Positions 14,701-30,124 of a stretch of DNA of 64,000 bases are shown here, one piece after another (positions within the stretch are counted from its first letter, which is position 1; each line of letters starts with the position of its first letter). The translations under genes were made by a program, and so were the position numbers. The notes beneath the pieces were generated by a model, which was given only the letters and a program-made list of their open reading frames with translations, had not been told where the DNA came from and made no database searches. The DNA comes from Nostoc sp. LEGE 12450 (GTDB lineage Bacteria; Cyanobacteriota; Cyanobacteriia; Cyanobacteriales; Nostocaceae), in NCBI RefSeq assembly GCF_015206895.1, contig NZ_JADEXU010000022.1, forward strand, positions 1 through 64,000, given 5' to 3'.

Positions 14701-15092
14701 AGCTGCATGAGCAAGGCATGAGCTACACACGTGCGGCGGTGAAAGCGGGACAAGAGCGTCTGCGACCCATCTTAATGACTTCTTTTGCAGCGCTGTTAGG
14801 ATTTTTGCCCTTGGTGATCTCTCAAGGGGCTGGAGCCAGTAGCCGTTGGTCTTTAGGAACAGCACTCTTTGGAGGGTTGCTGCTTTCAACATTCTTGAGT
14901 TTGTTCTTGGTGCCAATTTTGTATATCCTAGTCAAGACCCTAGCTCAGGCGATATTTTCTCGGAAGCGATCGGGTGGCTCAAAACCTCCGGATTATCCTA
15001 ATGAAACTTCGGGATCTGGACATGAAACTTTACCTACTGGCTTAACTCAGCCAGAGACACAACTTAGGTCTCAGCAGGACGGGATAACCTGA
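11775..15092 (+). CDS. RND-family multidrug efflux permease (AcrB/HAE1-like)
   Basis: The 1105-residue inner-membrane protein has the HAE1 start (MFVNTFIKRPVL...), PISQLPDLAPVQITV, and the large periplasmic loops between TM1-TM2 and TM7-TM8. The TM4 proton-relay motif GIVVDDAIIVVEAV carries the two aspartates equivalent to those of AcrB. The second half has LVTLIGLAAKNAILVVEFANQ and the C-terminal membrane bundle. It exports hydrophobic compounds using the proton gradient, normally with a periplasmic adaptor and an outer-membrane channel. Neither partner gene is adjacent, so they must be encoded elsewhere. The hydrophilic tail after about residue 1060 is longer than in AcrB. Confidence 0.95.
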   Translation: MFVNTFIKRPVLTTVCTFIILLLGSICIPILPISQLPDLAPVQITVSSNNIGADAQTTENTVTNIIERQINGVKDVSYISSNTGNDGSSNITVSFPTNVNSDIAQVNVQNKEALASPQLPDTVQRTGVTVETASSSLLLVYGFYSENNEYDNIFISNYVDLYILDQIKRLPGVGSARVFGERKYAMRLWLDPNKLAQHQLTPQDVTTALQQQNIQVGAGAIGKEPAPDNQSFEFALRATSRFKDAAEFEDMVLKVSQGGTNSTSNSATNSTLVKVRDVGRVELGAENYLADAKFTIPGNAPKAAVGLGIYQLPGSNALDVAHAVEEQIVALEKSFPPGLKAQLAFDTTPFVEISLEEVLHTLVEAIILVVLVIFVFLQDWRTTIIPTVAIPVSLIGTCAALLVLGFQINTLTLFGFVLAIGIVVDDAIIVVEAVAVKLEQGMRPFEAAVEAMKELTGAIIATSLVLMAVFIPVAFIPGTTGIVYKQFALTVACSIAISTFNALTFSPSMAAILMRPAQTARGPLGWFFTQFNRGFSWFTRRYVGFVSYLTHVKPIVVGVFITGLVATVLMYRAVPTGFIPEEDQGYFFVIVQGPDGVSLKYTESVMDRVVKEVTSAPEVRASFMISGFGFDGNASNLGIAFANLKPWKERAKESESVYGILQRLNKKLSAITEARAIAVNAPPVRGLSSTGGFEFIIQDRTGSAPIETLVETAQKFIAAANKKPVLQRVFTQFTADTPQFDIQVNRNQAKALNVEINDIFGALQTYLGSQYVNNFVQGQRQYRVYVQADGVFRSNPDDIGKLYVRSANGAMIPLSSLVKVTPFVGPKTIAHYNLYRSIKVQGAPASGSSSGEAIKAMEQVAAEVLPQGFGYEWTGTYLQEKKSGGATGLIFALAIVIVFLVLAAQYESYVDPIIILLTVPLAVLGAMTAIWLRSNIFMAGSLFPKVVDDIYCQVGLVTLIGLAAKNAILVVEFANQLHEQGMSYTRAAVKAGQERLRPILMTSFAALLGFLPLVISQGAGASSRWSLGTALFGGLLLSTFLSLFLVPILYILVKTLAQAIFSRKRSGGSKPPDYPNETSGSGHETLPTGLTQPETQLRSQQDGIT

Positions 15093-15138
15093 TTTTTACT
15101 ATCCTGTCTCTTTTCTGCCAACTCTACCGTGTAAACGC

Positions 15139-15192
15139 AAGGCTTGCTCTAATTCCCTCCTTTTTAAGGAGGGTTAGAGAGAATCAAGCCTT
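15139..15192. terminator. Long hairpin after the RND gene
   Basis: AAGGCTTG...CCCTCCTT pairs with AAGGAGGG...CAAGCCTT around a very short loop, with a few mismatches in the middle. It begins about 45 bp after the RND stop. It may terminate transcription, but it also resembles dispersed Nostoc palindromes. Confidence 0.55.
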
Positions 15193-15344
15193 AACTCAAG
15201 CATATTGCGCTATGGGCGAAGCCTTCAGTAGTCAGAAAGTGATGTTCATAACATCCTCTAACTCTGTTACCATTTTTTGTAATTTCCTGCTTGCTAAAAA
15301 AGTTAGTCGAATAGAAATTAAGTACTGAGATAAGGAAAAGTGAA

Positions 15345-15782
15345 ATGGGACTTAGCGAAGGACTTTTGAACCCGACCAAAAAAGCGATGGTCGTAGATGA
15401 ATGTTGCAACATGATAGAAGTACAGCTTGCATCCAAGTCAGGTATGAGCGGTATCGCTTTGAAAACTGCCTTTGCTGCTCTTAAAGGAGTCAAGCCAGGG
15501 TATATCCCCTACGTAGTTGAGCAGATCCTGCCGCAGTGCTTCACCGCACTTGATCCCATCTGGAGTGAAGGTGTACAGAAAGGCGATCCAATTGGACACC
15601 TGAGTGCAAATCGCTCTCATACGGCAGATGCGCTACTGGGTGTCACTGATGCTAGAGCCAAAAATGCCAAGCGCCAAATCGTGCGAGGAACCTATGAAAA
15701 ACTTCGCGGTTCAGCCAAAAAGCACGTAGAAGAAGCTATTCCAGACTTAGCCAAAGTAATCGATAATTACACTAAGGTTTGA
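15345..15782 (+). CDS. Small conserved protein, possibly DUF6918-like
   Basis: The 145-residue soluble protein has no signal peptide or membrane helix. It begins MGLSEGLLNPTKK and contains 'LASKSGMSGIALKTAFAALKGVKPGYI', 'ALDPIWSEG' and 'ALLGVTDARAKNAKRQIVRGTYEKLRGSAKKHVEEAIP', an all-helical pattern. From memory, similar proteins with 'SGxSGxAxKxAYxxxK' and 'LLxVTDARA' motifs occur in actinobacteria and cyanobacteria as an uncharacterised DUF. AAGGA 9 nt before the ATG supports the start. It is transcribed alone. No function can be proposed. Confidence 0.75.
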   Translation: MGLSEGLLNPTKKAMVVDECCNMIEVQLASKSGMSGIALKTAFAALKGVKPGYIPYVVEQILPQCFTALDPIWSEGVQKGDPIGHLSANRSHTADALLGVTDARAKNAKRQIVRGTYEKLRGSAKKHVEEAIPDLAKVIDNYTKV

Positions 15783-16010
15783 GGCAGAAGGCAGATCGCG
15801 CAGCGTGTCGCAGACAAAGCAGGAGCAATATTACTTGTAGGATTCGACCCCTCCTAAATTGAAGCCACTGAACTCTCGTAAGAAAGCAGAAAGCTGACAC
15901 AACATTGGGGGTCTGAAACCCAAGACTCTAGCAATTGATAAACGTATGCCGCCATTCGATGCGTCGATAACTGGCATACGGAGCAGATATTAGACATCTT
16001 CGAAAATAAA

Positions 16011-16041
16011 TGTAGAGACGTAGCACTGCTACGTCTCTACA
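16011..16041. repeat. Perfect 15-bp inverted repeat (TGTAGAGACGTAGCA family)
   Basis: TGTAGAGACGTAGCA is followed after a single C by its exact reverse complement TGCTACGTCTCTACA. This element is a frequent dispersed palindrome in Nostoc-type genomes as I recall. Confidence 0.8.
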
Positions 16042-16233
16042 AGGGTTCTGGATAAAACATATTTGATTGCTGGAGATGTTTATTATGCTTTTAGTACGAA
16101 GGTGTCTGGCTAAGGTCTTAAAAATAACATATCTGCTAAACTTCCTGATATTTTCCGAGTTAGCTTGAAACAGCAAATAATCAGAAACTATAGCAATCCG
16201 ATTTGATTTGATTTCTAAACTTATTTGTGTAGG

Positions 16234-16260
16234 AGGCAATAGGCAATAGGCAATAGGCAA
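16234..16260. repeat. Heptamer tandem repeat (AGGCAAT)n
   Basis: Nearly four direct copies of AGGCAAT. Short tandem repeats with a 7-bp unit (STRR sequences) are characteristic of heterocystous cyanobacteria. Confidence 0.9.
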
Positions 16261-16345
16261 GAAGGCTCTTTGAGTTGTACTGAATTTTTTCAGAAATCAA
16301 ATATGAGTCCTATATCTGAATTATTGTTTTAATAGGCTTGCAATT

Positions 16346-17257
16346 ATGAAAAAACTTACCGTTTTTCGATACCGCACTTATGGACTAATTGGGTTAATAT
16401 CTTTAACCACCGTATTAAGTACAACTACATCTGCCCTAACACAGCTAGCAAGCGATTCCCCAATTGGGCAAACTCCTATCCCTGCTTCTAACTTAATCTG
16501 GCCGACTCAAGGGTTTATTTCTCAAGGCTTTCGCAAATATCAACATGAAGGAATTGATATTGCAGGGGCATCTGGAACTCCAGTTGTTGCTGCTGCATCG
16601 GGTACTGTTGTAAAAGCAGGTTGGGATAATTGGGGGTTAGGCAATGCCATAACTATTAAACATCTTGACGGTAGCACTACTGTTTATGGTCATAATCGCC
16701 GTTTGCTGGTGAGCAAGGATCAACAGGTCATTCAAGGTCAAATTATTGCTGAGATGGGATCTACAGGCAATAGTACAGCACCTCATCTCCATTTTGAAGT
16801 GCATCCAAATGGTCGAATAGCAGTTGATCCCCTTCGTCTATTGACATCTTTAACTGCAAGTGTTTCCCCTGCTTCTAAAATTCAGCAAGTGGATAATCCG
16901 AACCGCCCAGTCTCGACAACCTCTGTGGCAAAGCAAGTTTCACCTCCATTGCCTCCAATAGGTTTTGCACCTATAAGCAGTGATACTAAGTGCAATGGAG
17001 TTACCATTATTGATGGTGAGACTGCAAATATTCATGTAAAGGTCTGTGAAGAAAATGGCCAGTTATTTTATATTGGGCAGTTGAAGCAAGACCCAAGCAA
17101 GCCTATAAAAATAGCAGCTTTGAATATTGGTAAAGGCAGATATCGAGCAGATAATGGTAGTTTTTATTATTTAGTCAGCCCTGAAAGAGTGGAAGTTTGG
17201 CGAAATGGCACTCAAATGCGTTCTGACAAATTTTATACTTTAACAAAATCACCATAA
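16346..17257 (+). CDS. Secreted M23 (LytM-type) peptidase
   Basis: The 303-residue protein has an N-terminal signal-peptide-like segment (MKKLTVFRYRTY then a hydrophobic stretch, about residues 1-35). The peptidase domain (about 48-170) carries the zinc ligands of the family: H67-x3-D71 in HEGIDIAG, and H147-L-H149 in HLHFE. This fits a cell-wall endopeptidase, or a LytM regulator of one, acting in the periplasm. A C-terminal domain (about 215-303, with two cysteines at CNG and KVCEE) is not one I recognise. All zinc-ligand positions are intact, so it is predicted to be active. It is flanked by repeats and transcribed alone. Confidence 0.9.
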   Translation: MKKLTVFRYRTYGLIGLISLTTVLSTTTSALTQLASDSPIGQTPIPASNLIWPTQGFISQGFRKYQHEGIDIAGASGTPVVAAASGTVVKAGWDNWGLGNAITIKHLDGSTTVYGHNRRLLVSKDQQVIQGQIIAEMGSTGNSTAPHLHFEVHPNGRIAVDPLRLLTSLTASVSPASKIQQVDNPNRPVSTTSVAKQVSPPLPPIGFAPISSDTKCNGVTIIDGETANIHVKVCEENGQLFYIGQLKQDPSKPIKIAALNIGKGRYRADNGSFYYLVSPERVEVWRNGTQMRSDKFYTLTKSP

Positions 17258-17680
17258 AGTTAGTATTTAATGTTTGACTATGGCTTGAGTTGATTAATTT
17301 GCTCAGTGATTCCATAGCTATCTATATATTGCTATAGAAATTATCACTTGTGATGCGGGGCTTGCTTTTGTTTAAGTCCAGTTAAAAGAGATAACCAGGG
17401 CGTAGGATGTCACTTATGCTGCTGACAGGGATATGTTCAGCTTAACCAAATTTACGTTTGATAATTATCAATCGCATTTGGTCATAAGTAATTTCCTATC
17501 GCTCTGGTGCTTGTTTGGCGGTGAAGTTTCGCCAAAAGTATAAAAGTAAAGGGCTTTTCAAGCCTATAACAATCGTTACTATTTTGCTGTATGAATGGAC
17601 ACAATTTTTGCTAGCTTTCAAATTTCTTCAAGCCTGATATAACACCAACTCGCAATGCTCGTTAAAAAGAAAGTGCCAAA
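17258..17680. other. 423-bp intergenic region between convergent genes
   Basis: The only clear structure is a 7-bp inverted repeat TTTGGCG...CGCCAAA around 17514-17536. It could be part of a terminator between the convergent peptidase and MscS genes. Confidence 0.4.
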
Positions 17681-19264
17681 TTAACCTTCAGCACTTTCAG
17701 CACGGATGGGAATTACAATTCCTTCGCGCAGTAGTGCATCCGTAAAAATCTTCCGAAGAACGCGTTGAATCTGAAGATGTTTTCCTGGCTTCACCTTCGT
17801 TAATGTCCGCAGCAGTAAGTTAGACTCTCCAAGGCTTTCCACTCCATCTATCTGTGTACCTTCAAGTACATCTGGATCGTTTGTTTTTAACTGTTGTCCT
17901 ACCTCCTCAATGACTTTATACACATGAGCTAAGTTGGAATTATAGGGCACACCAACTTCCACTACTGCAAAGATATACTGTTTAGAATAATTAGTGATTG
18001 AGCCAATATCTCCATTGCGAATAATCTGCAATTGACCATTGGGATGTCTAATACGAGTGGTTCTGAGTTCAATTGCCTCAACAATACCTTCGACAACTTT
18101 CTCTTCGGCTTTCCCAGCCTCAATATAATCACCCACTAAGTAGTAGTTTTCAAACAGAATAAAGAAGCCGCAGACTATATCGTTTATCAGTGTCTGTGCC
18201 CCTAAACCTACAGCTATACCGACAATACCAGCACCTGCAAGTATAGGAGTTGGGTCAATGTCAAGAGTATAGAGAATAGAGATAATAGCAGCAAAGTACA
18301 CAAAATATTGTAAGAAACTACGAAAAAGAGGAACGAGTGTCAAGCGTCTACTTCTTTGAATATCACTTAGATTCTGGTCTTTGAACAGTACCTCTTCAAC
18401 AAGTAAGTAAACGACTTCAAACAACACACGACTAATGAAGATGATGCCGATGATCTTGATAATTCGTGGGCCAAAAGCTGCGATATTAGCGATTAACTGC
18501 ACCTGCTGAATCACTAATGTTGCCATGCAGACATAAATTACAAATTCCAGACACCGTTTTAAAAAGGGTATCAGGTGTCGGAGGCGATCGTAGAATCTTA
18601 AGAGGTTATCAGGGTTGGAGTATCTGACGCTGAGAGCATCAAGAAAATCAACTACCGCCGCGACTGCTTTGAGAATCAGCAACCCGACGGCAATAATTAA
18701 ATAGATTCGCAGTGCAATGTACAAATATTCCGAAACCGTTGCTGGCAATTTGAGAAACTGGGCACACAAAATGACAGCCCACAGCCAGATTCCACCGCTA
18801 ATTCTGTGATAAAGGGCGTTAAAAAAAGCATCAATACTTTCATCATCGGCGGTATTTTTTTCTAAGTTCTTGGCGCGAGTGCTAGCTACCTTCAGCCAAT
18901 ATTTCAGAAATTTCAGTGCGATCGCCGCTAACATGAAAGTGCCAATGCTCTGAGCTATGCCAATTCCTAGAGTTATCCAAAATCTTGGTGGAATACGCTC
19001 AAGCATTGCTATGGTGTATTGTTGAAGGTTTTCGCCACGATAAATTAGATAACCATTAGCACCCACAATCAAAATACATGACACCAAGCAAGCAAGTAAC
19101 AACAACCCTGTAATGTTCCGACGCAAGGTTTTGATACTTCTATCTTCGCTCTTTAATATAGAGGTCTTTGCAAATAGCTTGAATAACTTGCTTACAAGCC
19201 AGTTCAATAATAAAAAAACAAAGGTTACAAGGCTGACTTCAGCTAAAATGATTAATATATTCAT
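17681..19264 (-). CDS. MscS-family mechanosensitive channel, multi-helix type
   Basis: The 527-residue protein has several predicted membrane helices before the MscS core (about residues 5-30, 50-75, 90-115, 155-215, 230-265 and 280-295). The core contains 'ILAGAGIVGIAVGLGAQTLINDIVCGFFILFENYYLVGDYI', the pore helix and start of the beta domain, then 'IRHPNGQLQIIRNGDI'. It differs clearly from the MscS at 6935-8608, having no cleaved signal peptide and a larger membrane sensor region. The role is osmotic pressure release or signalling. The hydrophilic loop at about 125-140 is acidic. It is probably monocistronic. Confidence 0.9.
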   Translation of the reverse strand: MNILIILAEVSLVTFVFLLLNWLVSKLFKLFAKTSILKSEDRSIKTLRRNITGLLLLACLVSCILIVGANGYLIYRGENLQQYTIAMLERIPPRFWITLGIGIAQSIGTFMLAAIALKFLKYWLKVASTRAKNLEKNTADDESIDAFFNALYHRISGGIWLWAVILCAQFLKLPATVSEYLYIALRIYLIIAVGLLILKAVAAVVDFLDALSVRYSNPDNLLRFYDRLRHLIPFLKRCLEFVIYVCMATLVIQQVQLIANIAAFGPRIIKIIGIIFISRVLFEVVYLLVEEVLFKDQNLSDIQRSRRLTLVPLFRSFLQYFVYFAAIISILYTLDIDPTPILAGAGIVGIAVGLGAQTLINDIVCGFFILFENYYLVGDYIEAGKAEEKVVEGIVEAIELRTTRIRHPNGQLQIIRNGDIGSITNYSKQYIFAVVEVGVPYNSNLAHVYKVIEEVGQQLKTNDPDVLEGTQIDGVESLGESNLLLRTLTKVKPGKHLQIQRVLRKIFTDALLREGIVIPIRAESAEG

Positions 19265-19935
19265 GCGCGATCGTAAAACTTAAATAATTTAAGCATTTTA
19301 TTATCAAAACCTATTGAGAGATACTTTGATATCTCTATAAGATAGATGATAATTATTTCATATAATCATCTGTTGTCAAGCTATTAACATTTAAATCACT
19401 TTATATCTAAGTGATGATTTCCAAAAAGCCTTTAAGGAAGATATTTGTGTAATTTCGGCTTTTAGAGTTGTATAAATCACCTGTAAGTTAAATATACTTA
19501 AGTATATGTTCATTGATAAGCGATCTAATTCCAGGACTTATACCAATTTGAAAAAAGAATCCAAAAAGCAAGATTTTCGGGTAGGGGCAATTCAATTGCG
19601 CCTACCGCGTATAGTTTTGGGTAAGTTATAAATTTATATCAGGTATTACCGAACACTCGTTTAAGCTGCTTAATGGTAGTTCGTGGCAAGCAATGATGAG
19701 ATTTTTTAGGGCTTTTGAAAACCGTTAAGTAACCGGAATAAACTACACACATCAAAATACATGCAAGAGAAACTGAGGACTGGGGAATAGTATTTTTTAC
19801 TCAGTACTTTCAAGCCAAATGGGTGGAAATAAAGCAATCTATATTAAAAAATATAAATTGACCTTTTTTAATTACAGCGATTTTCAGGTAAATAGACCAT
19901 ACGGTAGGGGCGCAAGGCCTTGGGCCCCTCCCCTA
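19265..19935. other. 670-bp intergenic region with two repeat palindromes
   Basis: No coding frame is supported. It holds the imperfect palindrome 19581-19605 (GTAGGGGCAATTC...) and the palindrome 19904-19936, which runs into the stop codon of the c-di-GMP gene. The promoter of the minus-strand MscS gene should lie near 19270-19400, an AT-rich stretch. Confidence 0.5.
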
Positions 19936-19936
19936 C
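19904..19936. repeat. Palindrome touching the 3' end of the EAL-GAF-GGDEF gene
   Basis: GTAGGGGCGCAAGG and a matching arm ending CCCCTCCCCTAC form an imperfect inverted repeat. Its last base is the first base of the stop triplet at 19936-19938. Related GTAGGGGC palindromes are at 38258-38285 and 19581-19605. It may serve as the transcript's 3' hairpin. Confidence 0.6.
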
Positions 19937-22164
19937 TAAAGGAAAGATTTAGGCTCAACATCCTGACAGTTTATCTGCACCACACAATTTCTTCCTTGTG
20001 CTTTTGCCTGGTAGAGTCCCTGGTCAGCAGCAGCAATTAAGGTTGCGGGAGATAATTGGCTATGAGGAGTTATGGTTGCCACACCAAGACTTAGAGTGAT
20101 GAATTCACTGACCTGAGAATGGGGATGAGGCATTTTTAATGCACTAATATTGGTCTGAATATCTTTTGCAACTGCAATGGCCCCTTCGATACCAGTATTC
20201 GGTAAAATAACTGCAAATTCTTCTCCACCATAACGAGCAACTAAATCAGCAGGGCGTTTGACTGTCTGAGAGATTACCTTGGCAACCTGTCTGAGGGCAT
20301 CATCTCCTGCCAGATGTCCATGCGTATCGTTGTAAAGCTTAAAGTAATCGACATCGCACAAAATCAAAGATAGCGAACCTTGCTCTCGTGCCAACCGTTG
20401 CCACTGTGTGTTGAATGTGTCATCAAAGCAGCGTCGATTTCCCACTTGGGTCAGACCATCCGAACAGGCAAGGCGCTGTAATTCCTGGTTTGCTTGTTGT
20501 AATTGGTGGTAAAGTTCTGATTGCTGAATAGCGATCGCAGCTTGTCCTGCTAACTGGTTAAACAAGTTAATCTCCGATTGCTGCCATTGTCTGGCATTAC
20601 GGCATTGATGAGCAATCAATAGTCCCCACAAACGCTCTTTCTGCAAGATAGGCACGACAAGGTTTGCCCGGATTTGCAAACTCCGCAGGAGGTCAAGATG
20701 ACACGGCGATAATCCAGCAGTTTCAATGTCTTCAATCGCTCTGGTGTTACCTTGTTGAAAGTAAATTGCACGAGTAGATTTAAAGCATGTGTCCATAACG
20801 TGAAATCCCAGAATGGACATACACTCTTCTGCTAAGGATTCTACAGCTACTAACCCACTCCAGTCTGACTCAAACTGGTAAATTATTACTCGGTCTACCT
20901 CAAACAGTTGCCGCACTTCGGCTGCTGTGGTTTGCAAAATCTCGTCTAACTCTAACGATTGTCGAATGCGCTGCGTCACAGCTGCGACAATTCGCTCGGA
21001 CTCATTTTGGTGTTGGACATGCCGCTCAACCAGCTTAGAATCTGTCGATGCTACATTTAACGTGATTGGATCAAAGTGAGGGGTTGTAGTGACAGGCACT
21101 GCACTAGGTTTAGCAATCAAATAGCCTTGAGCAAGATTTGCACCTCGTTCTCGCAGCCAGTTTAGTTCCTCAATACACTCAATTCCTTCAGCAACGGTCT
21201 GGATGTTTAACTTTTGAGTAATCTCTAAAAGCTTCTCGGTAATCGAAGCTTTGTAAAGGTCTTGATGTACATCTCGAATTAACTCCATATCCAGCTTGAT
21301 AAAGTCTGGACGTAACTGATGCAGCAAGTTTAGGCTGGAATAGCCAGAACCAAGGTCATCAAGAGCTACTAAAAATCCAGCATCCCGGTAGTATTTAAGC
21401 ACTGCCTTGAGATGGGTTAAATCTTGAGGATTATCTGATTCTACAACTTCAAAGACAACGCGATCGTGGGAAATTTCGGCAGTATCAATTGCCTCAACTG
21501 AACTACTGAGGCAAAAAGCTGGATCGTAAAGTGATGTTGGCGCAAAATTGATGAAGATATGCCCACTCACTTTATACCGACTGAATTCAGTGATTGCGCT
21601 GAGGCGAGCAATTTGGTCGAGTTGTGGTATTAGTCCGGCTTCGGTTGCTAACTCCATAATTGGTGTCGGTAGCATTAAATTGCCTTCTTCATCCAGCCCC
21701 CGCAAGAGCGATTCATATCCAAAAATCTGCGATGTATCGTTAATTGAGACAATTGGCTGAAAGTAACTGGTAAATCGTTCCGTTGCCAACATTTCAACTA
21801 GCCAGTCGGATTGGTTCAACTTAATGAAGCGTTGTAATGAGGCTATGTCACTAAAATCATGGAGTTGAGGTTGGATATTACCTTGAGTGAAAAGGACTTG
21901 CGTCTCTTTTAATTCTCTAGGTGCAAGTCGTTTGGCCAGGTTACGGGCAATTTCTATAGACTGTCCGGGTTTACACTTCAAACTCAAACCTGGTCGCTCG
22001 TGCATCAGTTCATACTCAAGTCCAAGCTGCTGTAGGTAGGAGGTGACTTTTTTGAGGGTATGTGTAACGGGAAACCAGAGAAAGAGCCTGCCTGCCTCCT
22101 TAGTCTGGCAGCGTGCAACATTGCGACAAGCACAGGTTTTGGAGATAGAACATATCTGGCTCAT
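19936..22164 (-). CDS. EAL - cyanobacteriochrome-type GAF - GGDEF c-di-GMP enzyme
   Basis: The 742-residue protein has three parts. (1) An N-terminal EAL phosphodiesterase (about 115-370) with key residues retained: E151 in YESLLRG (ESL in place of EAL), FINFAP, FEVVES, DDLGSGYSSL, FIKLD, AEGIE and AQGY. (2) A GAF domain (about 400-565) of the bilin-binding type, with a DTCF motif (D458-F461, C460) and a canonical SPCH cysteine C488, then RANLVVPI and LLIAHQC. (3) A GGDEF cyclase (about 590-735) with an intact GGEEF (646-650) and an I-site RPAD (637-640). The DXCF-to-CH spacing of 28 residues is what I recall for TePixJ, a blue/green two-cysteine photoreceptor. So it is probably a light-controlled enzyme making or degrading c-di-GMP. 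The N terminus has a cysteine cluster (C5, C11, C13, C19) of unknown role. Confidence 0.9.
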   Translation of the reverse strand: MSQICSISKTCACRNVARCQTKEAGRLFLWFPVTHTLKKVTSYLQQLGLEYELMHERPGLSLKCKPGQSIEIARNLAKRLAPRELKETQVLFTQGNIQPQLHDFSDIASLQRFIKLNQSDWLVEMLATERFTSYFQPIVSINDTSQIFGYESLLRGLDEEGNLMLPTPIMELATEAGLIPQLDQIARLSAITEFSRYKVSGHIFINFAPTSLYDPAFCLSSSVEAIDTAEISHDRVVFEVVESDNPQDLTHLKAVLKYYRDAGFLVALDDLGSGYSSLNLLHQLRPDFIKLDMELIRDVHQDLYKASITEKLLEITQKLNIQTVAEGIECIEELNWLRERGANLAQGYLIAKPSAVPVTTTPHFDPITLNVASTDSKLVERHVQHQNESERIVAAVTQRIRQSLELDEILQTTAAEVRQLFEVDRVIIYQFESDWSGLVAVESLAEECMSILGFHVMDTCFKSTRAIYFQQGNTRAIEDIETAGLSPCHLDLLRSLQIRANLVVPILQKERLWGLLIAHQCRNARQWQQSEINLFNQLAGQAAIAIQQSELYHQLQQANQELQRLACSDGLTQVGNRRCFDDTFNTQWQRLAREQGSLSLILCDVDYFKLYNDTHGHLAGDDALRQVAKVISQTVKRPADLVARYGGEEFAVILPNTGIEGAIAVAKDIQTNISALKMPHPHSQVSEFITLSLGVATITPHSQLSPATLIAAADQGLYQAKAQGRNCVVQINCQDVEPKSFL

Positions 22165-22725
22165 AGCTAACTACTTTGTTCAATCAAATTTATTTTATTA
22201 TTCCCACTATTTTTACAATAAAAGATAAACTATGCTTCAAATATATGAAGATTTGATGAGTTCGGTAGTTTGAAGAATTTGGTGTATCAAATAACAGAGC
22301 AGCACATCTATAGCTTTGTATCAAAGGTTTAAGTAATAGTCGATCAATTATTGTAGAATGAAGCAAATTAATAAGAGTTATATAAAGAATTTAAGCCATG
22401 AAATCAAAAGAAAAATCAGCTAGGTAAGGAATAATTTTTTGCTAGACTAATTTAGCTTGACCTTATCCATATCGTTAAATGATGCGCTTGGTGTTAGTTT
22501 TTACATCACTCAAGTAGGCTGACAGATAAGATAGTTAAGTAATTAATTTCAAAAATAAGAGTAGAGATGTTGCAATGAAACATTTTTACTCGCCAAGATA
22601 GTGCAGAATTGCGATCGCTGGAGACTTTGTATTATTTTTTAACCACAGATTCACATAGATAATTCATCGGTATCAATCTGTGGTTTCATTTTCATAAAAT
22701 TGACTTTTGCACAAAGTTTACTGTT
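22165..22725. other. 561-bp intergenic region downstream of the polysaccharide block
   Basis: No gene was found. The region is AT-rich and should contain the promoter of the c-di-GMP gene. At 22641-22685 the arms AACCACAGATT and AATCTGTGGTT form an 11-bp stem with a long loop, about 40 bp after the last glycosyltransferase gene. It may be the 3' end of the polysaccharide transcript. Confidence 0.5.
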
Positions 22726-23856
22726 TCATTCAGCAGATGAAACACTTGGTATTGCAGAACGAATTGCACTAATAAAGTTTTGAGCATAGTTCTGTGTTGA
22801 GAAATCCAAGGCGCGTTGCCTGGCAGCTATTCCTGCACTACGGGCAAATTCTTGTTCGTCAAGATAGCGGAGAATTGCGATCGCTAATTTATCCACATTG
22901 CCGTAAGGTGTTAATAGTCCATTCATGCCATCGGTAATAATCTCTGTCGGGCCTCCTGCATCGCCAGCAATCACAGGTTTACCCAGCGCCATCGCCTCAA
23001 TAATCACAATTCCAAAGGGTTCTTTATCCGATGCATGAACGAATACATCCATCGCCTGCACCCACTCAGGGATATTACGCTGTAGTCCAGCCATAATTAC
23101 TTGCTTTTTCAAGCCCAAGTTTGTGATTTCTGCTTTTAAAAAGTCCTCATAGTCTGGTTCCAAATCGTGCTTACCGCCAACTACCACACAATGAGCATCA
23201 GGATACTTCTCTAAAATTTTGGGCATCGCTTGCACTAATACGTGCATTCCCTTCCATCGTTGCAATCGTCCCACAATTCCAATCAATGGGCCGTGTAAAG
23301 GTAAGCCCAGTTTTCGGCGTGCTTCTTCTGGGGTTGGCAAAGCATCAGGCTCAAATCGGTCTAGCGCGACACCGGGATAAACCAAGGGTGTTGGCCTGTG
23401 GGGCCAAATCTCTGCTTGTGCTTGCTTACCATCTTGAGAGAGAGTGATAATTGCGCGGGCTGGGATTAAAGTAGCAAGTCTTACCAACCAAGTTTTATCG
23501 CTAGGTACTTCTAGCTGATACCATACAGCAGGCAAACCAGCCAGCATCGCCGCCAAACCTCCAGATATATGCGTAATCCACATCCAATTGACAATTATAT
23601 CTGCACGTTCGCGGCGTGCGATCGCAGCTATCCGAAAAACAGCACCAATAAAACGGTGGATTTGGCGTAAACGTCCACTTTCTACAACTCGCGCATCAAT
23701 GCCAAGGGACTTTACTTGTTCTACCATCGGGCCGTGTTCTAAAAATATCACTAGCCACTCAACACCAGCATTACGTCCCTGCTGTACCAAATCCCAAAGC
23801 ATCATTTCACCGCCGCCTCGTTGTTCGGCTAGTGGCATTACAATAATTGCTTTCAT
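22726..23856 (-). CDS. Glycosyltransferase, GT4 family
   Basis: The 376-residue GT-B enzyme has an N-terminal nucleotide-fold start (MKAIIVMPLAEQRGGGE), the mid-protein 'GIVGRLQRWKGMHVLVQAM' that opens the donor domain, and the E-x7-E motif in EPFGIVIIEAMALGKPV. It transfers a sugar from a nucleotide donor to a lipid-linked or growing glycan in the cytoplasm. It is the last gene of the minus-strand polysaccharide block, 55 bp after the Wzy/ligase-like gene. Donor and linkage cannot be read from sequence. Confidence 0.92.
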   Translation of the reverse strand: MKAIIVMPLAEQRGGGEMMLWDLVQQGRNAGVEWLVIFLEHGPMVEQVKSLGIDARVVESGRLRQIHRFIGAVFRIAAIARRERADIIVNWMWITHISGGLAAMLAGLPAVWYQLEVPSDKTWLVRLATLIPARAIITLSQDGKQAQAEIWPHRPTPLVYPGVALDRFEPDALPTPEEARRKLGLPLHGPLIGIVGRLQRWKGMHVLVQAMPKILEKYPDAHCVVVGGKHDLEPDYEDFLKAEITNLGLKKQVIMAGLQRNIPEWVQAMDVFVHASDKEPFGIVIIEAMALGKPVIAGDAGGPTEIITDGMNGLLTPYGNVDKLAIAILRYLDEQEFARSAGIAARQRALDFSTQNYAQNFISAIRSAIPSVSSAE

Positions 23857-23911
23857 AATTTAATCAGTCCTATTTAAGTTGTAATATTTTGTTGTTTAAC
23901 TCAATTCATAT

Positions 23912-25342
23912 TTATAAATTCTTGGGATTGCTATAGTATTTGTGTCCTGCCATAGCCATAGCTAAAAATCCCCAAAGAATCATCCCTGCCACACTTAACA
24001 TTCCACTACCAATAATTAGCTGTGTAGCTGAACTGATACCAATCGCACGAGCAGCACTGATAAAACTATCAAAACGTCCTTCACCATAACTGCTAACACT
24101 AATAATTAACAAGATTAATCCACCCATATAAAAAATGGCTCCAAACCAACCAAGGGTGAAAAACATATCTAAAATGCCACTATCAATCACCACTACTTCA
24201 ATTTGACCAGTTTTTTCGTTGACTTTCCAAATATTTCCCAAGCCGTTACCTAAACCATTAGAAAGGGCTAGACCAAGGTTTTTGTCATAACTTCCCGATC
24301 TATCTTTAAAACTGGTATCTTCTTGAAGATTAGAAAAAGTTTCCAAACGGGCTGATACAACTCCAGCAATTGGCTCAATAGTTGTCAATGGCACAACACA
24401 AATTGCCATCACCGCAATTATGATGATTAAGCGCATTTGAATTCGCGCCTTTACTGAAGCCACAATCATAATTATTCCAAATAACCAGCCTCCCCAATTA
24501 GTCCGCGCTTGTGTCAGTAGGAACGACAAGTAACCAACAGCTGAAGCAGGAAAAATTAAATTTCCCGAACTGGTAAATAACAACAGTAAACCAGCTTGCA
24601 TGACGGAACCAAAAGGGCCGACTGAGTGCAATGTACTCCAAACACGCATCCCGAAAGGTACAGGGTTTCCAGAACTCATGAATAGTTTTGATTGGATGAG
24701 CCAATACCTATCCCACTCAGGAGCTACTACGAATTGATATATGCCATAAGTTCCTAAAATTAGCACACACCAAAGAAATGTTCGCTGAATATTCTGGCGA
24801 TAGCTAGGATAATCTCGCCAGTTTATAAATAAGTGAAAAGCGAAGATAATCGGACTGAGCCAATCCAGCAGTCCGCGTGCTACAGGGATTGGTGGGTTAT
24901 AAATCAGACCGATAAGAAAGCCATAAAAGACTCCGATAAAAGCCATAACAAACGGCAAACCCCCTTGACGTGAGGCACGGGGAAAATGTCGCAAGAAGGT
25001 TGCTATGGTTACAAACACCACTAAATATGGCGCTATAAGCATCTGGCGAGTAGCGTCCCAACCCACCCGATAGTCAACTAAGCGAGTAGCTAAGGGCGTG
25101 AGAAACCATATCCACCAAGTAAAGCTGATGTAGAGAATGGGATGCCGCAAGTATAAAAACACGGCTACTGCTAAAGCCGTCACCGGGTAAATTAGGCGCA
25201 GTGCAGCAGTAGCACCAGCAAAATAGCAAACTACAGTTAGTAGTATAAAGCCTGCGATCGCCATCCACCCCTGTTGCGATCGCTCTTCGGGAGAATAATT
25301 TTTTTCTAAAAAACTATTGAAAAGTATCTGTCTAGAATTCAT
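23912..25342 (-). CDS. Polysaccharide polymerase / O-antigen-ligase-like membrane protein
   Basis: The 476-residue protein is very hydrophobic, with about ten or more membrane segments and a hydrophilic loop around residues 335-390 (LETFSNLQEDTSFKDRSGSY). That topology is typical of Wzy polymerases and WaaL-type ligases. It lies among glycosyltransferases and in the same cluster as a Wzc-like protein, so repeat-unit polymerisation in the plasma membrane is the likely job. No Wzx flippase was recognised in the window, although HepA could export the unit. Family assignment rests on topology and context. Confidence 0.75.
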   Translation of the reverse strand: MNSRQILFNSFLEKNYSPEERSQQGWMAIAGFILLTVVCYFAGATAALRLIYPVTALAVAVFLYLRHPILYISFTWWIWFLTPLATRLVDYRVGWDATRQMLIAPYLVVFVTIATFLRHFPRASRQGGLPFVMAFIGVFYGFLIGLIYNPPIPVARGLLDWLSPIIFAFHLFINWRDYPSYRQNIQRTFLWCVLILGTYGIYQFVVAPEWDRYWLIQSKLFMSSGNPVPFGMRVWSTLHSVGPFGSVMQAGLLLLFTSSGNLIFPASAVGYLSFLLTQARTNWGGWLFGIIMIVASVKARIQMRLIIIIAVMAICVVPLTTIEPIAGVVSARLETFSNLQEDTSFKDRSGSYDKNLGLALSNGLGNGLGNIWKVNEKTGQIEVVVIDSGILDMFFTLGWFGAIFYMGGLILLIISVSSYGEGRFDSFISAARAIGISSATQLIIGSGMLSVAGMILWGFLAMAMAGHKYYSNPKNL

Positions 25343-25484
25343 TCAATTTTAGATTTTAGATTTACACATAAAAAATCCCAAATGAAATAATCAGTCTGCA
25401 ATGACCAATACTTCTCTACGAGAGGCTACGCCAACGGCTTCTCTACGAGACGCTACGCGAACGCTCAGTACAAGTGACAAATGA
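25343..25484. repeat. Dispersed repeat and heptamer repeats
   Basis: The stretch 25413-25470 repeats CTCTACGAGA-GCTACGC units (two tandem-like copies, CTCTACGAGAGGCTACGCC and CTCTACGAGACGCTACGCG). From about 25476 a 7-bp unit of the type AATGACC/AATGACT is repeated up to the next gene's stop. Confidence 0.75.
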
Positions 25485-26411
25485 CTAATGACCAATGACA
25501 AATTGTTTATATCCTTGCCAACGCCCCCGCCAAGATGCCAGCAATTTTTTCCCCGCCAACTGCCCTTGGCTAGGTAAAAATCTCAGCCATTGTACAAAAC
25601 CCAAACTATCACACGTACCTATAAATACTGCCCAGAATAAAAATACAATCCGGCGCATAAATGGCAAATGTTCTAGTAAAACTAGGGTTTCATTATGGAC
25701 TAAATTAATAAAAGCAATCTCGTTAAAATTATTTCGCTGATCTTCATCAAAACGTTTTGCTGGATAGTGGTCTACAGCAACATTAGGATCATAAATTATC
25801 TTCCAACCAGCCCGCTTTAATGCCAGAGTGAATGCCATTTCAAAATGTACCTGCGCTCCAGTACCACGCATCCGCTCGTCAAAGCGTAATTGCCCGATGG
25901 CCTCTTTACGAAAACTCATGTTTACGCCTTTGAGAATATCGACTTCGCGGGGTTCTCCCACTCCCAGATGATGGTTGCCAATCACTCGCCCAAACCATTG
26001 CAACTGTCCCACTATTGGGCGGGATTCGTCTTCTAATTTGCTGCCGTGGTATACCCAATCACGCCCTCCCAGACCGCCGAGGCGACTATCTGAGGTAAAG
26101 TAAGCGGCGATGCGCTCTAACCAATCTGGGTGTGGTGCAGCATCATCATCAGTAATGGAGACAATATCGCCCTCCACTGCTGCTAATCCGGCATTGAGGG
26201 CTGCTACTACGCCCGGTTGTGTCACTTTCACAGTATGCAGTGGCAGATTGGGCGCGTTTAATTGCGCTAAAAATTGCCAAGTTTCTGCATCCGTATCGCG
26301 GACAACCACTATCACCTGATCGACGGGTTTAATTTGCTTCTGTAGCGCTAAAAGGCAGCGTGATAGGTCTTGTGGACGGCGATAAGTTGGTATCAGAACG
26401 GTGTTCCGCAT
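25485..26411 (-). CDS. Glycosyltransferase, GT2 family
   Basis: The 308-residue GT-A enzyme starts MRNTVLIPTYRRPQDLSRCL, has the metal-binding acidic triplet in SITDDDAAPHPDWL, and a C-terminal hydrophobic segment (about 255-275) that may anchor it to the membrane. Its start lies 83 bp inside the end of the upstream GT4 gene, in another frame; the conserved N terminus MRNTVLIPTYRR means the overlap is real rather than a mis-called start. It is likely translationally coupled to that GT4. The donor is unknown. Confidence 0.92.
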   Translation of the reverse strand: MRNTVLIPTYRRPQDLSRCLLALQKQIKPVDQVIVVVRDTDAETWQFLAQLNAPNLPLHTVKVTQPGVVAALNAGLAAVEGDIVSITDDDAAPHPDWLERIAAYFTSDSRLGGLGGRDWVYHGSKLEDESRPIVGQLQWFGRVIGNHHLGVGEPREVDILKGVNMSFRKEAIGQLRFDERMRGTGAQVHFEMAFTLALKRAGWKIIYDPNVAVDHYPAKRFDEDQRNNFNEIAFINLVHNETLVLLEHLPFMRRIVFLFWAVFIGTCDSLGFVQWLRFLPSQGQLAGKKLLASWRGRWQGYKQFVIGH

Positions 26412-27552
26412 TGCTTAACTCCTCGAATAGATCCACATAAGTTTGTGCCATACTAGTCCAGCTATGTTGTTCTGCCACAGAACGAGCAGCTTTGCCCATT
26501 TGCTGTATGAGGGTGGGACTACTCACCAAAGTCAGCAATGCCAGAGCCAAAGCATCAATATCATCTGAGTCGGATAAGACGATGCCACATTCTGGTGTCA
26601 CCAACTCTCCGCCCCCGGTAGCTGTGGCAGTAATTACTGGTAGTCCTGAAGAAAGTGCTTCTAACAATACGAGGCTGCAAGCTTCGTATCGGGAAGGAAA
26701 AACAAATAAATCTACTGCTTGCATAATTTGGGGGATATCACGGCGAAATCCGACAAAATGCACACGTTCATTTAACCCCAAAGAGGCTGCTAACTGCGGG
26801 AAAGGGCTATTTTGGGTGTGTCCTACTACCACCAAATGTAAATCTGGAACTTTCACCAAGGCGTGCAGTACTGTATCTAAGTTCTTTCTGGGTGTGCGGA
26901 TATCTCCGGCGAACAATGCTAGGGTGACATTCTCCGGTAAACCTAACTTTTGGCGTAGGCGTAGCCCGCCGCAGGCATCGCTTTTTTCACTAGGGGCAAA
27001 CTCGTCTAAATCAACGCCATTGATAATTACGCGAATGCGAGAACGAGGTACACCAATGTTGACTAATTCGTGAGCTACCTTTTCAGATACAGCCACAACA
27101 ACCTGCGCCTTTTGGAAAGCCTGTTTTTCCCAACGCGCATTAAAAGCCGTAAACAGCCACTGGTATAAACCATATAAATCGCGGCGGTTGCGAGAAATAT
27201 GAACAGGCGATCGCAACCATGAACTGTGGACAAAATGTACAGCATTCACATCAGCCGCAGCTAGATTAATTGCGCCATTGACTTTAACCAGATCAATCTC
27301 AGAGCGATGTTTCCGCAACCAATCTGTACTTTTTTGGGCAAATACGAAATTACGTACAAATTCTGTCGGATAATCTTTGACTGGAATTGGAATCCAATTA
27401 ACTTGACTATTAGCTTCTAGTTCTGGTGCGACTTCACTAGCTAATAATGTTAGTTGATGACCACGACGAATTGCTTCATTAGCAACCTCATAGTTTACTC
27501 GTCCCTGTCCATCACCTTTTTTAATTTTATGAGTAACAATACAAAGTTTCAT
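26329..27552 (-). CDS. Glycosyltransferase, GT4 family, with an in-frame repeat insertion
   Basis: The 407-residue GT-B enzyme has an N-terminal MKLCIVTHKIKKGDGQGRVNYE and a donor domain starting near 'LALFAGDIRTPRKNLDTVLHAL'. The E-x7-E motif is in EACSLVLLEALSSGLPV. Between the two domains a 30-bp dispersed repeat (26953-26982) encodes SDACGGLRLR (about residues 191-200) without breaking the frame. Its last 83 bp overlap the following GT2 gene, and the C-terminal tail (about 380-407) looks unconserved. It is part of the polysaccharide block. Confidence 0.92.
   Translation of the reverse strand: MKLCIVTHKIKKGDGQGRVNYEVANEAIRRGHQLTLLASEVAPELEANSQVNWIPIPVKDYPTEFVRNFVFAQKSTDWLRKHRSEIDLVKVNGAINLAAADVNAVHFVHSSWLRSPVHISRNRRDLYGLYQWLFTAFNARWEKQAFQKAQVVVAVSEKVAHELVNIGVPRSRIRVIINGVDLDEFAPSEKSDACGGLRLRQKLGLPENVTLALFAGDIRTPRKNLDTVLHALVKVPDLHLVVVGHTQNSPFPQLAASLGLNERVHFVGFRRDIPQIMQAVDLFVFPSRYEACSLVLLEALSSGLPVITATATGGGELVTPECGIVLSDSDDIDALALALLTLVSSPTLIQQMGKAARSVAEQHSWTSMAQTYVDLFEELSNAEHRSDTNLSPSTRPITLPFSATEAN
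26953..26982. repeat. 30-bp dispersed repeat inside a glycosyltransferase gene
   Basis: The repeat reads GCGTAGGCGTAGCCC then GCCGCAGGCATCGCT. A copy with 27 of 30 matching bases lies in-frame in another gene at 42656-42685, and a 19-bp relative lies at 6964-6982. Its length is a multiple of three, so the gene stays open. Confidence 0.85.
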
Positions 27553-27865
27553 CCACTACCTTCTTTAGTAATTTAAGCTTATGCAGAACCGCAAATAAAA
27601 AGTTGAAAATAATCCAATACAGTTCAGTTAAACATTTCTTTATTCTCTCAGTGTCCTCTGTGTCTCTGTGGTAGCCTGCGGCAAGCCGCTCCGCGTCTAC
27701 GTAAAAAAATGACCTTGACAAAGATTTTTAGCCTTAACTTAACCGTATTATCAAATAATCTTCTTTTCTTACCTTCGCGGTTCGTTAAAAAATAGCATTT
27801 ACACAAACAGAGATTTTCAGGTAGAGGCAATTCATGAATTGCCTCTACAAGACCATATTGCTCTA
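27553..27865. other. 313-bp repeat-filled gap
   Basis: No gene. It contains TCTCTGTGGTAGCCTGCGG and AAGCCGCTCCGCGTCTACG, a sequence shared with 41095-41135, and the perfect 28-bp palindrome at 27821-27848 listed separately. Confidence 0.6.
27821..27848. repeat. 28-bp perfect palindrome
   Basis: GTAGAGGCAATTCA followed by TGAATTGCCTCTAC is exactly self-complementary. It is a member of the same family as 1339-1362. Confidence 0.85.
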
Positions 27866-28858
27866 CTATTTCGACAATTCTATTAATTTATTTGCTAAAA
27901 ATTGCGGAGTAAAACTAAGACTTAGGGCTACTAAAGTTCGCGCATTAAATTTTTGTTTAGTCAGCGCCTGCCAAAAATAAGGACGTGCTACCGCTATCTG
28001 TTTACTTCGCAGCAAACCAATTCCCAAAGTTGTATTAGCCTCTAACCATTTCTGTTGAAAGTGCGTTCTAAATTTCTGTAATCGAGCGTCTTCCATAAAG
28101 ACTTGATAACAGAACATTTCGCTTTTAGCTTTGCGAATTTTTGCTTGCACATCTCGACTACCACTGAGCATAGTATCAGTTTGCTCATGAGCGCGATATC
28201 GCGTCAGTCTTTCTGGATAGTAGTAAGCGCCATAACCCGATATACAACACAGGTAAGTTAAATATAAATCCCACATTCCACCAACTTCTGGAGGAATACT
28301 ATCCCAATCAACCAGATTATTGCGAATCAAGCAAGATGCAGCAGTAGGTATACTTTTATCTACCAATCCAACTTTGTAAAAAGGTTGATAAATTCCTTCT
28401 TTGAGTTTATCTCGCTTATAACCGCGTGTATTTTTTTCAGTCCCAGCATTATCAATTATGCCATTTGCATCTATGATATATTGGTCGCAAAAAGCAATAA
28501 TTAACTCAGAATTTGCTTCCAAAACTGGTACAAGCTTTGCTAGAAAGTCTTCATTCCAGATATCATCATCATGAAGACTAGCAATATATTTACCTCGTGC
28601 CATATTGAACCCATGCTGCTGATTAGCAAGCATACCTACATTTTGTTGGTGTCGCCAAAATCTGATGCGTGAATCACCAAAAGATGCCACAAGTGCTTGA
28701 GGATTTTCTGGACTGCAATTATCTGAAACAATAATTTCGATATTTTGATAAGTCTGTTTAATAGCACTAGCGATCGCTTGCTTGAGATAGTCTGGTCGGT
28801 TATAGGTAGGAATAATAACACTGACTAAAGGCTGTTGGCATTTTTGAGATAATGACAT
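27866..28858 (-). CDS. Glycosyltransferase, GT2 family
   Basis: The 330-residue GT-A enzyme has 'PLVSVIIPTYNRPDYLKQAIASA' at the start, SDNCSPENP, and the acidic metal/nucleotide motif SLHDDDIWNEDF around residue 95. The C-terminal part is helical without a clear membrane segment. It is the next gene after the GT4 at 28922-30124, 63 bp apart, in the minus-strand polysaccharide block. Typical members add hexose or deoxyhexose units; the specificity here is unknown. Confidence 0.92.
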   Translation of the reverse strand: MSLSQKCQQPLVSVIIPTYNRPDYLKQAIASAIKQTYQNIEIIVSDNCSPENPQALVASFGDSRIRFWRHQQNVGMLANQQHGFNMARGKYIASLHDDDIWNEDFLAKLVPVLEANSELIIAFCDQYIIDANGIIDNAGTEKNTRGYKRDKLKEGIYQPFYKVGLVDKSIPTAASCLIRNNLVDWDSIPPEVGGMWDLYLTYLCCISGYGAYYYPERLTRYRAHEQTDTMLSGSRDVQAKIRKAKSEMFCYQVFMEDARLQKFRTHFQQKWLEANTTLGIGLLRSKQIAVARPYFWQALTKQKFNARTLVALSLSFTPQFLANKLIELSK

Positions 28859-28921
28859 ATTTTTTTCCTTTATAGTTAATAGATAAAAGATGCACCATTA
28901 GAGATTTTGACCAAAATAAGC

Positions 28922-30124
28922 TTATTTCACTTGAGAAATACTATAGAATTTTTTCGTTCTCGCAGGAAAGTCAGCTATTGTTTTTTCATAAATTGTTCGC
29001 AGATTATTTACATGAGCAGCCATTGTAAATTCCTTCATCAATAAAGCATGGCCTTGTTCGCCCATCTGCCGACTTTTTTGATAATCTTCATCCAAAGAAT
29101 GAATAGCATCAACTAGCTTTTTGATATCATTACCTGGAACAAGAATACCTGTTTCTCCATCTCGTAAATGTTCTGGAATTCCTCCGACTGCACTACCAAT
29201 TACAGGGCGATAATTAGAGTATGCTTCTAGTGTTACAAGACCAGCAGGTTCAGGCCAGACACTAGGAAAGATGACTGCAAAACACTGTTGATAAAGTTGA
29301 TTTATTTTGTCAGCATCGCACCAACCATGCCAAGTGATCCGATTACTTAATCCGAGTGTGTTTGCTAACTTTTCTAACCGTGGCCGTTCCCAACCTTCAC
29401 CTGCAATATCAAGTTTAATTTGCGGATTTGTATGTATTAAGGTTTTAAGTAGCCATTCCAGACCTTTATCAGAAACAATGCGACCAACAAATAAAATTCT
29501 ATGATTTTGATGAACTTCTAAGCTCAAAGGGGCAGTCTTGATTTGCGGTACAGAGATACCACAGTGTAGGGTTACAGTTTGCTCAGAAGGTACGCCGTTT
29601 TGAATCAACTCTTGACGCACGTATTCACTATTGGCGACAAAAGTAATTTTTACCTTTTTTAAGGTATCTAATAACTGATGAGTAATTTGAAGTTCTTTAA
29701 GAGTTCTTAACGGTCTACGGCTACCACATTTATCTACTAACTTACCCCAAGTACAACCTAAGTAAGAAAAGTTGCGATCGCAGATTGTCCGTTGCCCTGC
29801 TAAATACTTTGTGCCACTAGGACAGTACAATGAGTGATTATGAACACTAAAGACAGTAGGACATTCGCCTGTAAGCTGCAATAGTAAATCTGGGCTGTGG
29901 ATGTGCAGCAGCTTGAATTGGCTTTGGTCAACACCCTTAAGGGATTTTATCACGCGATCGCTAACTTCAGGTGGTCGATGTTCAAACAGAGAAGCTAAAT
30001 AAGTTTCAACACCTCCGCCCTCACCCACATCAAAATTCGAGCATTGATAAATCAGGTCTTCTTCAAAAATTCCTCTATGCAAGTGTTTATTAGCTTGTTT
30101 GGCTTCATTGATTGAGTTAAGCAT
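28922..30124 (-). CDS. Glycosyltransferase, GT4 family
   Basis: The 400-residue GT-B enzyme's donor domain begins 'RILFVGRIVSDKGLEWLLKTL' and has the E-x7-E motif in EPAGLVTLEAYSNYRPV. The acceptor half has several cysteines (CPSGT, CDRNFSYLGCTWG, CGSRR), a pattern also seen in some GT4 enzymes, perhaps structural. It lies 70 bp after the GT-A-like gene at 30195-31034 and before a GT2. Confidence 0.92.
   Translation of the reverse strand: MLNSINEAKQANKHLHRGIFEEDLIYQCSNFDVGEGGGVETYLASLFEHRPPEVSDRVIKSLKGVDQSQFKLLHIHSPDLLLQLTGECPTVFSVHNHSLYCPSGTKYLAGQRTICDRNFSYLGCTWGKLVDKCGSRRPLRTLKELQITHQLLDTLKKVKITFVANSEYVRQELIQNGVPSEQTVTLHCGISVPQIKTAPLSLEVHQNHRILFVGRIVSDKGLEWLLKTLIHTNPQIKLDIAGEGWERPRLEKLANTLGLSNRITWHGWCDADKINQLYQQCFAVIFPSVWPEPAGLVTLEAYSNYRPVIGSAVGGIPEHLRDGETGILVPGNDIKKLVDAIHSLDEDYQKSRQMGEQGHALLMKEFTMAAHVNNLRTIYEKTIADFPARTKKFYSISQVK

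Follow-up and report, generated by a model that had tools for sequence, protein, structure and literature searches.

The stretch of DNA analysed here, referred to below as the window, comprises 64,000 nucleotides of the cyanobacterium Nostoc sp. LEGE 12450 (contig NZ_JADEXU010000022.1, positions 1 to 64,000), and the element under study is one gene whose product, as judged from its sequence, is very probably a light-controlled enzyme acting on cyclic di-guanosine monophosphate (c-di-GMP). The open reading frame (ORF) starts with ATG, encodes 742 amino acids and, according to the ORF list and its translation, is located on the minus strand (22164..19936); the strand was absent from a preliminary description of this DNA. 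Frame 1 of the plus strand at 19936-22164 is interrupted by many stops. Three domains are recognised by Pfam: EAL at residues 121-353 (expectation value, E, 3.3e-54), GAF at 405-546 (E 1.7e-24) and GGDEF at 567-726 (E 2e-50). Residues 1-120, called here the N-domain, match no Pfam family. The preliminary description proposed a light-sensing c-di-GMP enzyme and, given a cyanobacteriochrome (CBCR) of the DXCF type joined to an EAL and a GGDEF domain which both look competent, a light-regulated enzyme is still the best reading.

The gene is real, and it is conserved. Its nearest named relative, a protein of Desmonostoc muscorum FACHB-395, is 99% identical, and full-length relatives (E 1e-120) occur in 22 of 34 other genomes of the genus and in 1 of 24 genomes of the order, together with a broken copy in one genome (G008). 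When 386 genomes were drawn from the phylum, including the 8.8 Mb genome in which the gene lies, the full-length form was present in 11, the two best candidates per genome being scored. A named scan, in which 80 of 82 matches were kept, gave 75 loci, 50 of them full-length (L073-L121 and L124). Carriers of the full-length form include Nostoc, Desmonostoc, Chlorogloeopsis, Calothrix, Tolypothrix, Nodosilinea, Leptolyngbya, Pantanalinema and Halomicronema, so that conservation extends across many Nostocales and several cyanobacteria of the Leptolyngbya/Nodosilinea type. After removal of duplicates there were at least 62 distinct fused proteins, and the conservation counts out of 62 given below refer to these rows. 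The broken copy (L149:6464-7836) consists of a start fragment with 29 matched residues, followed by a frame that begins within the EAL and ends within the GGDEF domain. No description of this protein was found in the open-access literature; most subscription papers lay outside that scope, and the word unstudied is therefore provisional.

In the GAF domain the motif DTCF occupies residues 458-461 (C460) and SPCH residues 486-489 (C488), with 28 residues from one cysteine to the other. A phmmer alignment to the solved structure 3vv4_A, which we take to be TePixJ with its cysteines at C494/C522, extends over 144 residues without a gap (E 9.4e-33) and sets DTCF opposite DPCF and SPCH opposite TECH. 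Because this alignment is ungapped, C460 and C488 can be assigned to both CBCR positions: a canonical cysteine stands before His/Tyr and a second, DXCF cysteine lies 28 residues upstream. The preliminary description had placed the two cysteines there from their spacing, and the alignment, which might have set them elsewhere, bears this out; the segments RANLVVPI and LLIAHQC that it pointed out in the GAF are both in the translation. Conservation is nearly complete, with C488 and D458 in 62/62 fused proteins, C460 in 61/62 and H489 in 60/62. It is extremely improbable in the light of these counts that the GAF no longer binds a bilin and that the protein acts as a bifunctional enzyme independently of light, an idea to which one relative lacking C460 (L033) gives some substance; the genome also holds three bilin-reductase-family matches, owing to which bilin synthesis is likely available. 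The same genome encodes one protein with three tandem DXCF GAF domains (L017-L019, G000:C36), and of 12 further CBCR-like proteins encoded in the loci of this genome that were examined, 7 combine [DE]xCF with a cysteine at a distance of 28 residues downstream.

Both enzyme domains look competent in sequence. The EAL residues E151, N206, E239, E242, D269, D270, K290, E326, E329 and Q346, presumably catalytic or metal-binding, are each kept in 62/62 fused homologues, and the same holds for D604 (which we take to be a metal-binding aspartate), D606, R644 and GGEEF of the GGDEF domain, as well as for two further cysteines, C521 and C218. The earlier statement that the EAL has all catalytic residues is thus true of every fused row. 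In the case of the cyclase, the intact GGEEF and I-site noted in the preliminary description are both in this copy, but only GGEEF is general. The I-site, RPAD here and located five residues ahead of GGEEF, retains R637 in 26, D640 in 57 and the RxxD pair in 26 of the 62 rows, versus an RxxD pair in 14 of 15 non-fused CBCR-GGDEF relatives (Fisher p 3e-4, kinship ignored), and the starred branches of the tree require at least six changes at this site. A cyclase with a built-in phosphodiesterase may have less need of product inhibition. Membership of the EAL in the RimA type (NCBIfam NF052265) was considered and rejected: this family is the second-best NCBIfam match, obtained via the EAL (E 5.7e-56), and its 189.5 bits are far under the family cut-off of 430. 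The positions of all features are collected in Table 1.

Table 1. Features of the gene in the window, with coordinates on the window and the evidence for each.
Feature	Coordinates	Strand	Basis
Whole gene (N-domain, EAL, DXCF-CBCR GAF, signalling helix, GGDEF)	19936..22164	-	ORF, Pfam, 62 distinct fused homologues
CxCx5C motif, residues 11-19 (C11, C13, C19)	22108..22134	-	Conservation across 62 fused rows; mostly CxxC in CBCR-less proteins
N-terminal domain, residues 25-120, predicted b-a-b-b-a-b (ferredoxin-like) plus short helices	21805..22092	-	AlphaFold2
C64, fourth conserved N-domain cysteine	21973..21975	-	61/62 fused
EAL phosphodiesterase domain, residues 121-353	21106..21804	-	
Variable EAL-CBCR linker, residues 354-386	21007..21105	-	Length 28-36, 0 invariant columns, 62 rows
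DXCF cyanobacteriochrome GAF, residues 387-548	20521..21006	-	Pfam GAF; ungapped alignment to 3vv4_A
C460, second (DXCF) cysteine	20785..20787	-	Opposite DPCF of 3vv4_A; 61/62
C488, canonical bilin cysteine	20701..20703	-	Opposite CH of 3vv4_A; 62/62
End of long GAF-GGDEF helix, residues 549-566	20467..20520	-	Predicted helix 529-566; fixed spacing
GGDEF diguanylate cyclase domain, residues 567-728	19981..20466	-	Pfam PF00990; GGEEF 62/62
I-site RPAD (R637-D640)	20245..20256	-	In this copy; RxxD kept in 26/62 fused
GGEEF signature (646-650)	20215..20229	-	62/62

The two linkers on either side of the CBCR behave differently. A helix is predicted to join the GAF to the GGDEF domain; along it the distance from H489 to D569 is 81 residues in 62/62 fused proteins, and half of the columns 549-566 are invariant. 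The linker between the EAL and the CBCR ranges in length between 28 and 36 residues, with 33 as the value for 47 of the 62 rows, and has no invariant column at all. Among 15 non-fused relatives the GAF-GGDEF distance is 81 in 11, 74 in 3 and 82 in 1. Three CBCR-GGDEF proteins (L062, L064 and L066) carry EPCF in place of DXCF and have a GAF-GGDEF spacing one heptad shorter (74 vs 81). For phytochrome-controlled cyclases it has been described that coiled-coil linker lengths step by seven and that length affects function (PMC9587094). Since one distance is fixed and the other linker is variable, light probably exerts tight control over the cyclase and loose control over the phosphodiesterase; the CBCR would then drive the cyclase via a helical pair, to which the EAL is more loosely attached.

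The invariance of GGEEF together with that of the 81-residue distance, next to a variable EAL linker, suggests that selection has preserved the cyclase as well as its link with the sensor. These observations do not fit well with a protein that is mainly a phosphodiesterase in the cell, similar to SesB, with a dominant EAL whose hydrolysis is tuned, up in green or teal and down in blue, by the CBCR-GGDEF part as a sensor of GTP and light. Such a protein is unlikely, but it has to be reckoned with: the EAL is fully conserved and occurs also without the CBCR-GGDEF part, two proteins with the fused-type cysteine pattern (L151 and L123) retain only the N-domain and the EAL, and there are precedents in SesB, a phosphodiesterase that teal light and GTP stimulate (PMC5871770), and in CdgSH, with phosphodiesterase activity dominant in vitro (PMC8682488).

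The reading that is preferred, and considered probable by analogy with SesA, SesC and Cph2, is that of a light-controlled enzyme which raises c-di-GMP in blue light and lowers it in green light or darkness. The protein would be a photoreceptor enzyme of the cytosol, probably a dimer. Its GAF would bind phycocyanobilin (PCB) at C488 and probably convert at least part of it to phycoviolobilin (PVB). In the dark state a bond between C460 and the chromophore would produce a form that absorbs blue; on illumination with blue light the bilin would isomerise and the C460 bond would break, leaving a form that absorbs green. The signal would run along the fixed-length helix to the GGDEF pair and increase c-di-GMP synthesis in blue, with reset by green light or darkness. 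The EAL at the other end would hydrolyse c-di-GMP constantly or under a weaker control by light, and the net output would be synthesis in blue and breakdown in green or dark. Parallels have been published. The C-terminal CBCR of Cph2 binds PCB/PVB via two cysteines, absorbs green/blue and adjoins a GGDEF domain that is activated in blue, and the EAL of Cph2 is active (PMC5812497). SesA is a blue-activated cyclase with a blue/green CBCR joined to GGDEF and under strict product inhibition (PMC5871770). SesC synthesises c-di-GMP under blue light and breaks it down under green light (PMC5871770, PMC9090330). By description only, SesA of Thermosynechococcus shares the CBCR and GGDEF architecture with the window protein; it differs in that its description includes no EAL or N-domain and in its strict product inhibition. 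SesC, also of Thermosynechococcus, resembles the window protein, again by description only, in the proposed making in blue and degrading in green.

Several observations weigh against this reading or limit its reach. C460 is lost in one fused protein (L033, C460G). The solved GAFs which score best are not of the DXCF type (6oap with EDQYF, 6mgh with DRYF), 3vv4 being fifth, and the full-length model is poor in several regions, the GAF included. The fused GAFs form one clade (100/100) that sits in an unresolved fork of the GAF tree, so lineage gives no colour. Related CBCR-GGDEF proteins (L049, L060, L065, L070) carry DxYF, and therefore the colour class can shift. Furthermore, 36 of 62 relatives lack an intact I-site, because of which product control varies among them, and the blue/green difference in c-di-GMP reported for Cph2 is only about 50% (PMC5812497), so the switch may be modest. 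Some of these points, with the replacement of H489 by Y in two fused proteins (L107 and L115), lend themselves to a DXCF CBCR of another colour pair (blue/orange, blue/teal or another PCB:PVB mix) or of reversed sign, still under the control of light. The DXCF motif is moreover spread over several lineages, from which the red/green lineage was derived via cysteine loss (PMC11284453). Nevertheless, blue/green with PVB is the behaviour typical of DXCF proteins according to the same source, and the CBCR of Cph2, likewise beside a GGDEF, has just these colours; another colour pair or sign is accordingly quite improbable, and blue/green is the default expectation for this GAF. The protein L033 (G003:C26) is the only one of the 62 with C460 replaced and, if the blue/green reading is right, it is a natural colour mutant in a lichen cyanobiont.

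The order EAL-CBCR-GGDEF was regarded in the preliminary description as undescribed. This cannot be upheld, since the C-terminal half of Synechocystis Cph2 has that order (PMC5812497). As a stand-in for Synechocystis Cph2, all comparisons used a Cph2-type protein of 1238 residues (L148:3563-7279, G160) with the Cph2 layout of GAF, PHY, a degenerate GGDEF (HGDRF), EAL, CBCR (EPCF...SCH) and GGDEF. The window protein is like Cph2 in domain order, in a homologous CBCR-GGDEF part (53% identity over 344 columns) and in the spacing of 81, which is also that of L148. Unlike Cph2, it has no GAF-PHY-GGDEF half, one GAF and one GGDEF being all that is present; the place of that half is taken by the N-domain with its conserved cysteines, and the EAL comes from a separate family. 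EAL identity to L148 is 27.5%, whereas it is 61.5-75% to five proteins consisting of N-domain and EAL and 54-75% across all 16 such CBCR-less rows. A 100/100 branch of the EAL tree (the bootstrap was not fully settled) separates 51 fused and 16 N-domain plus EAL rows from the Cph2-type EAL, represented by one protein in two copies, and from a single other EAL. A shortened Cph2 that lost its N-terminal half was therefore rejected, because the EAL belongs to a different family.

The simplest account suggested by the sequences is a single fusion, separate from that of Cph2, in which an N-domain plus EAL phosphodiesterase would have been joined to a CBCR-GGDEF module. The 23 fused rows used in the CBCR-GGDEF tree form a single clade (100/100). 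The fused rows do not by themselves make up one side of a branch in the EAL tree: L151 (Anabaena sp. 4-3) is nested among them, weakly (81/78), and the placement of L123 is unresolved. It seems that L151, and perhaps also L123, lost the CBCR-GGDEF part at a later stage; no remnant of it was found beside either. For the CBCR-less N-domain plus EAL proteins, too, no published description was found in the open-access literature.

What is new here is the N-domain, predicted to be ferredoxin-like and equipped with four cysteines that are conserved together. The AlphaFold2 model of residues 1-120 shows b-a-b-b-a-b over residues 25-94, with a predicted local distance difference test (pLDDT) score of 84-95 in this block and of 81-95 per ten-residue block from residue 21 onwards; the cysteine-bearing tail (1-20) is below 50. 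A structure search with the N-domain alone gave no significant PDB match; a sensor with a PII-like or ACT-like ferredoxin fold was considered, and PII-like folds did appear in the fold search, at the same level as designed proteins and one ribosomal protein, so that no family is excluded. The list from the whole model was filled by EAL and GGDEF structures. In the draw of 386 genomes the N-domain was found in 25, the G008 fragment counted, in frames of 375-406 residues or in fused ones of 743-765. The cysteine-rich N terminus of the preliminary description is there: the window protein has C5, C11, C13, C19 and C64, of which C11, C13 and C64 are each kept in 61 of the 62 fused rows, C19 in 60 and C5 in 37. 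The N-domain cysteines are missing from one row (L114), the frame of which has a late start, and in L107 a cysteine lies one place before C19. The 16 CBCR-less rows (360-394 residues, with an EAL match in all 16) have an N-domain and EAL like those of the window protein and differ in the absence of CBCR-GGDEF and in their cysteines. Their tail carries CxxC, not CxCx5C, in 13, the CxC form in L151 and L123, and neither CxxC nor CxC in L176. Position 64 is L/I/V in 14, with C only in the CxC-bearing L151 and L123, the latter without C19. The cysteines of the N-domain thus largely vary as a set, and the pattern C11/C13/C19/C64 accompanies the CBCR-GGDEF lineage. It may represent a four-cysteine metal or redox site, the geometry of which is unreadable from the model. 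A two-input switch has been considered on this basis, with light entering via the CBCR and a redox or metal signal via the site at C11, C13, C19 and C64 that gates the EAL, and with the phosphodiesterase setting the limit in place of the I-site, whose repeated loss would thereby be explained; such a switch is distinctly unlikely.

About 560 bases upstream, and on the same strand, are glycosyltransferase-like genes and an O-antigen-ligase-like gene, named by inspection, so the polysaccharide block does adjoin the gene as had been stated; its suggested role as a target of c-di-GMP is unsupported. Relatives of these neighbours stand beside the gene in only 2 of 52 named loci (L073 and L083, whose proteins are 97% and 99% identical), and a mechanosensitive-channel-like neighbour recurs in 6 of 52. 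The search (tblastn, E 1e-20, half of the query) sought only relatives of the window's own neighbours; of the 52 loci 50 are fused and two (L122, L123) are not, and 38 have a length of 17 kb or more, the others having shorter flanks. No PilZ domain was matched in the genome at E 1e-3, with matches in 5 of 14 control genomes, and c-di-GMP probably acts via other receptors. In Anabaena CdgR is a c-di-GMP receptor (PMC13075795). To judge from published work, motility, aggregation or cell-size control are likelier outputs. No RNA elements or riboswitches were found in 15000-29000 at the gathering threshold, and a scan for promoter-like (9 vs 9.3 expected) and terminator-like (2 vs 2.5 expected) signals was uninformative.

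Similar light-colour switches are already known and one more of the kind will not surprise a specialist. The notable features are a Cph2-like order of likely separate origin, two linkers that contrast with each other, an I-site that was lost repeatedly and, in the N-domain, a set of four matched cysteines. If the preferred reading is true, a compact protein of about 740 residues makes and destroys c-di-GMP under one blue/green sensor and would be a candidate two-way optogenetic tool, and the fixed and the variable linker would offer a natural test of which end light controls. The cysteine-bearing N-domain would be a possible meeting point of light with redox or metal signals, and the family as a whole suggests, again if the reading is right, that the order EAL-CBCR-GGDEF arose more than once.

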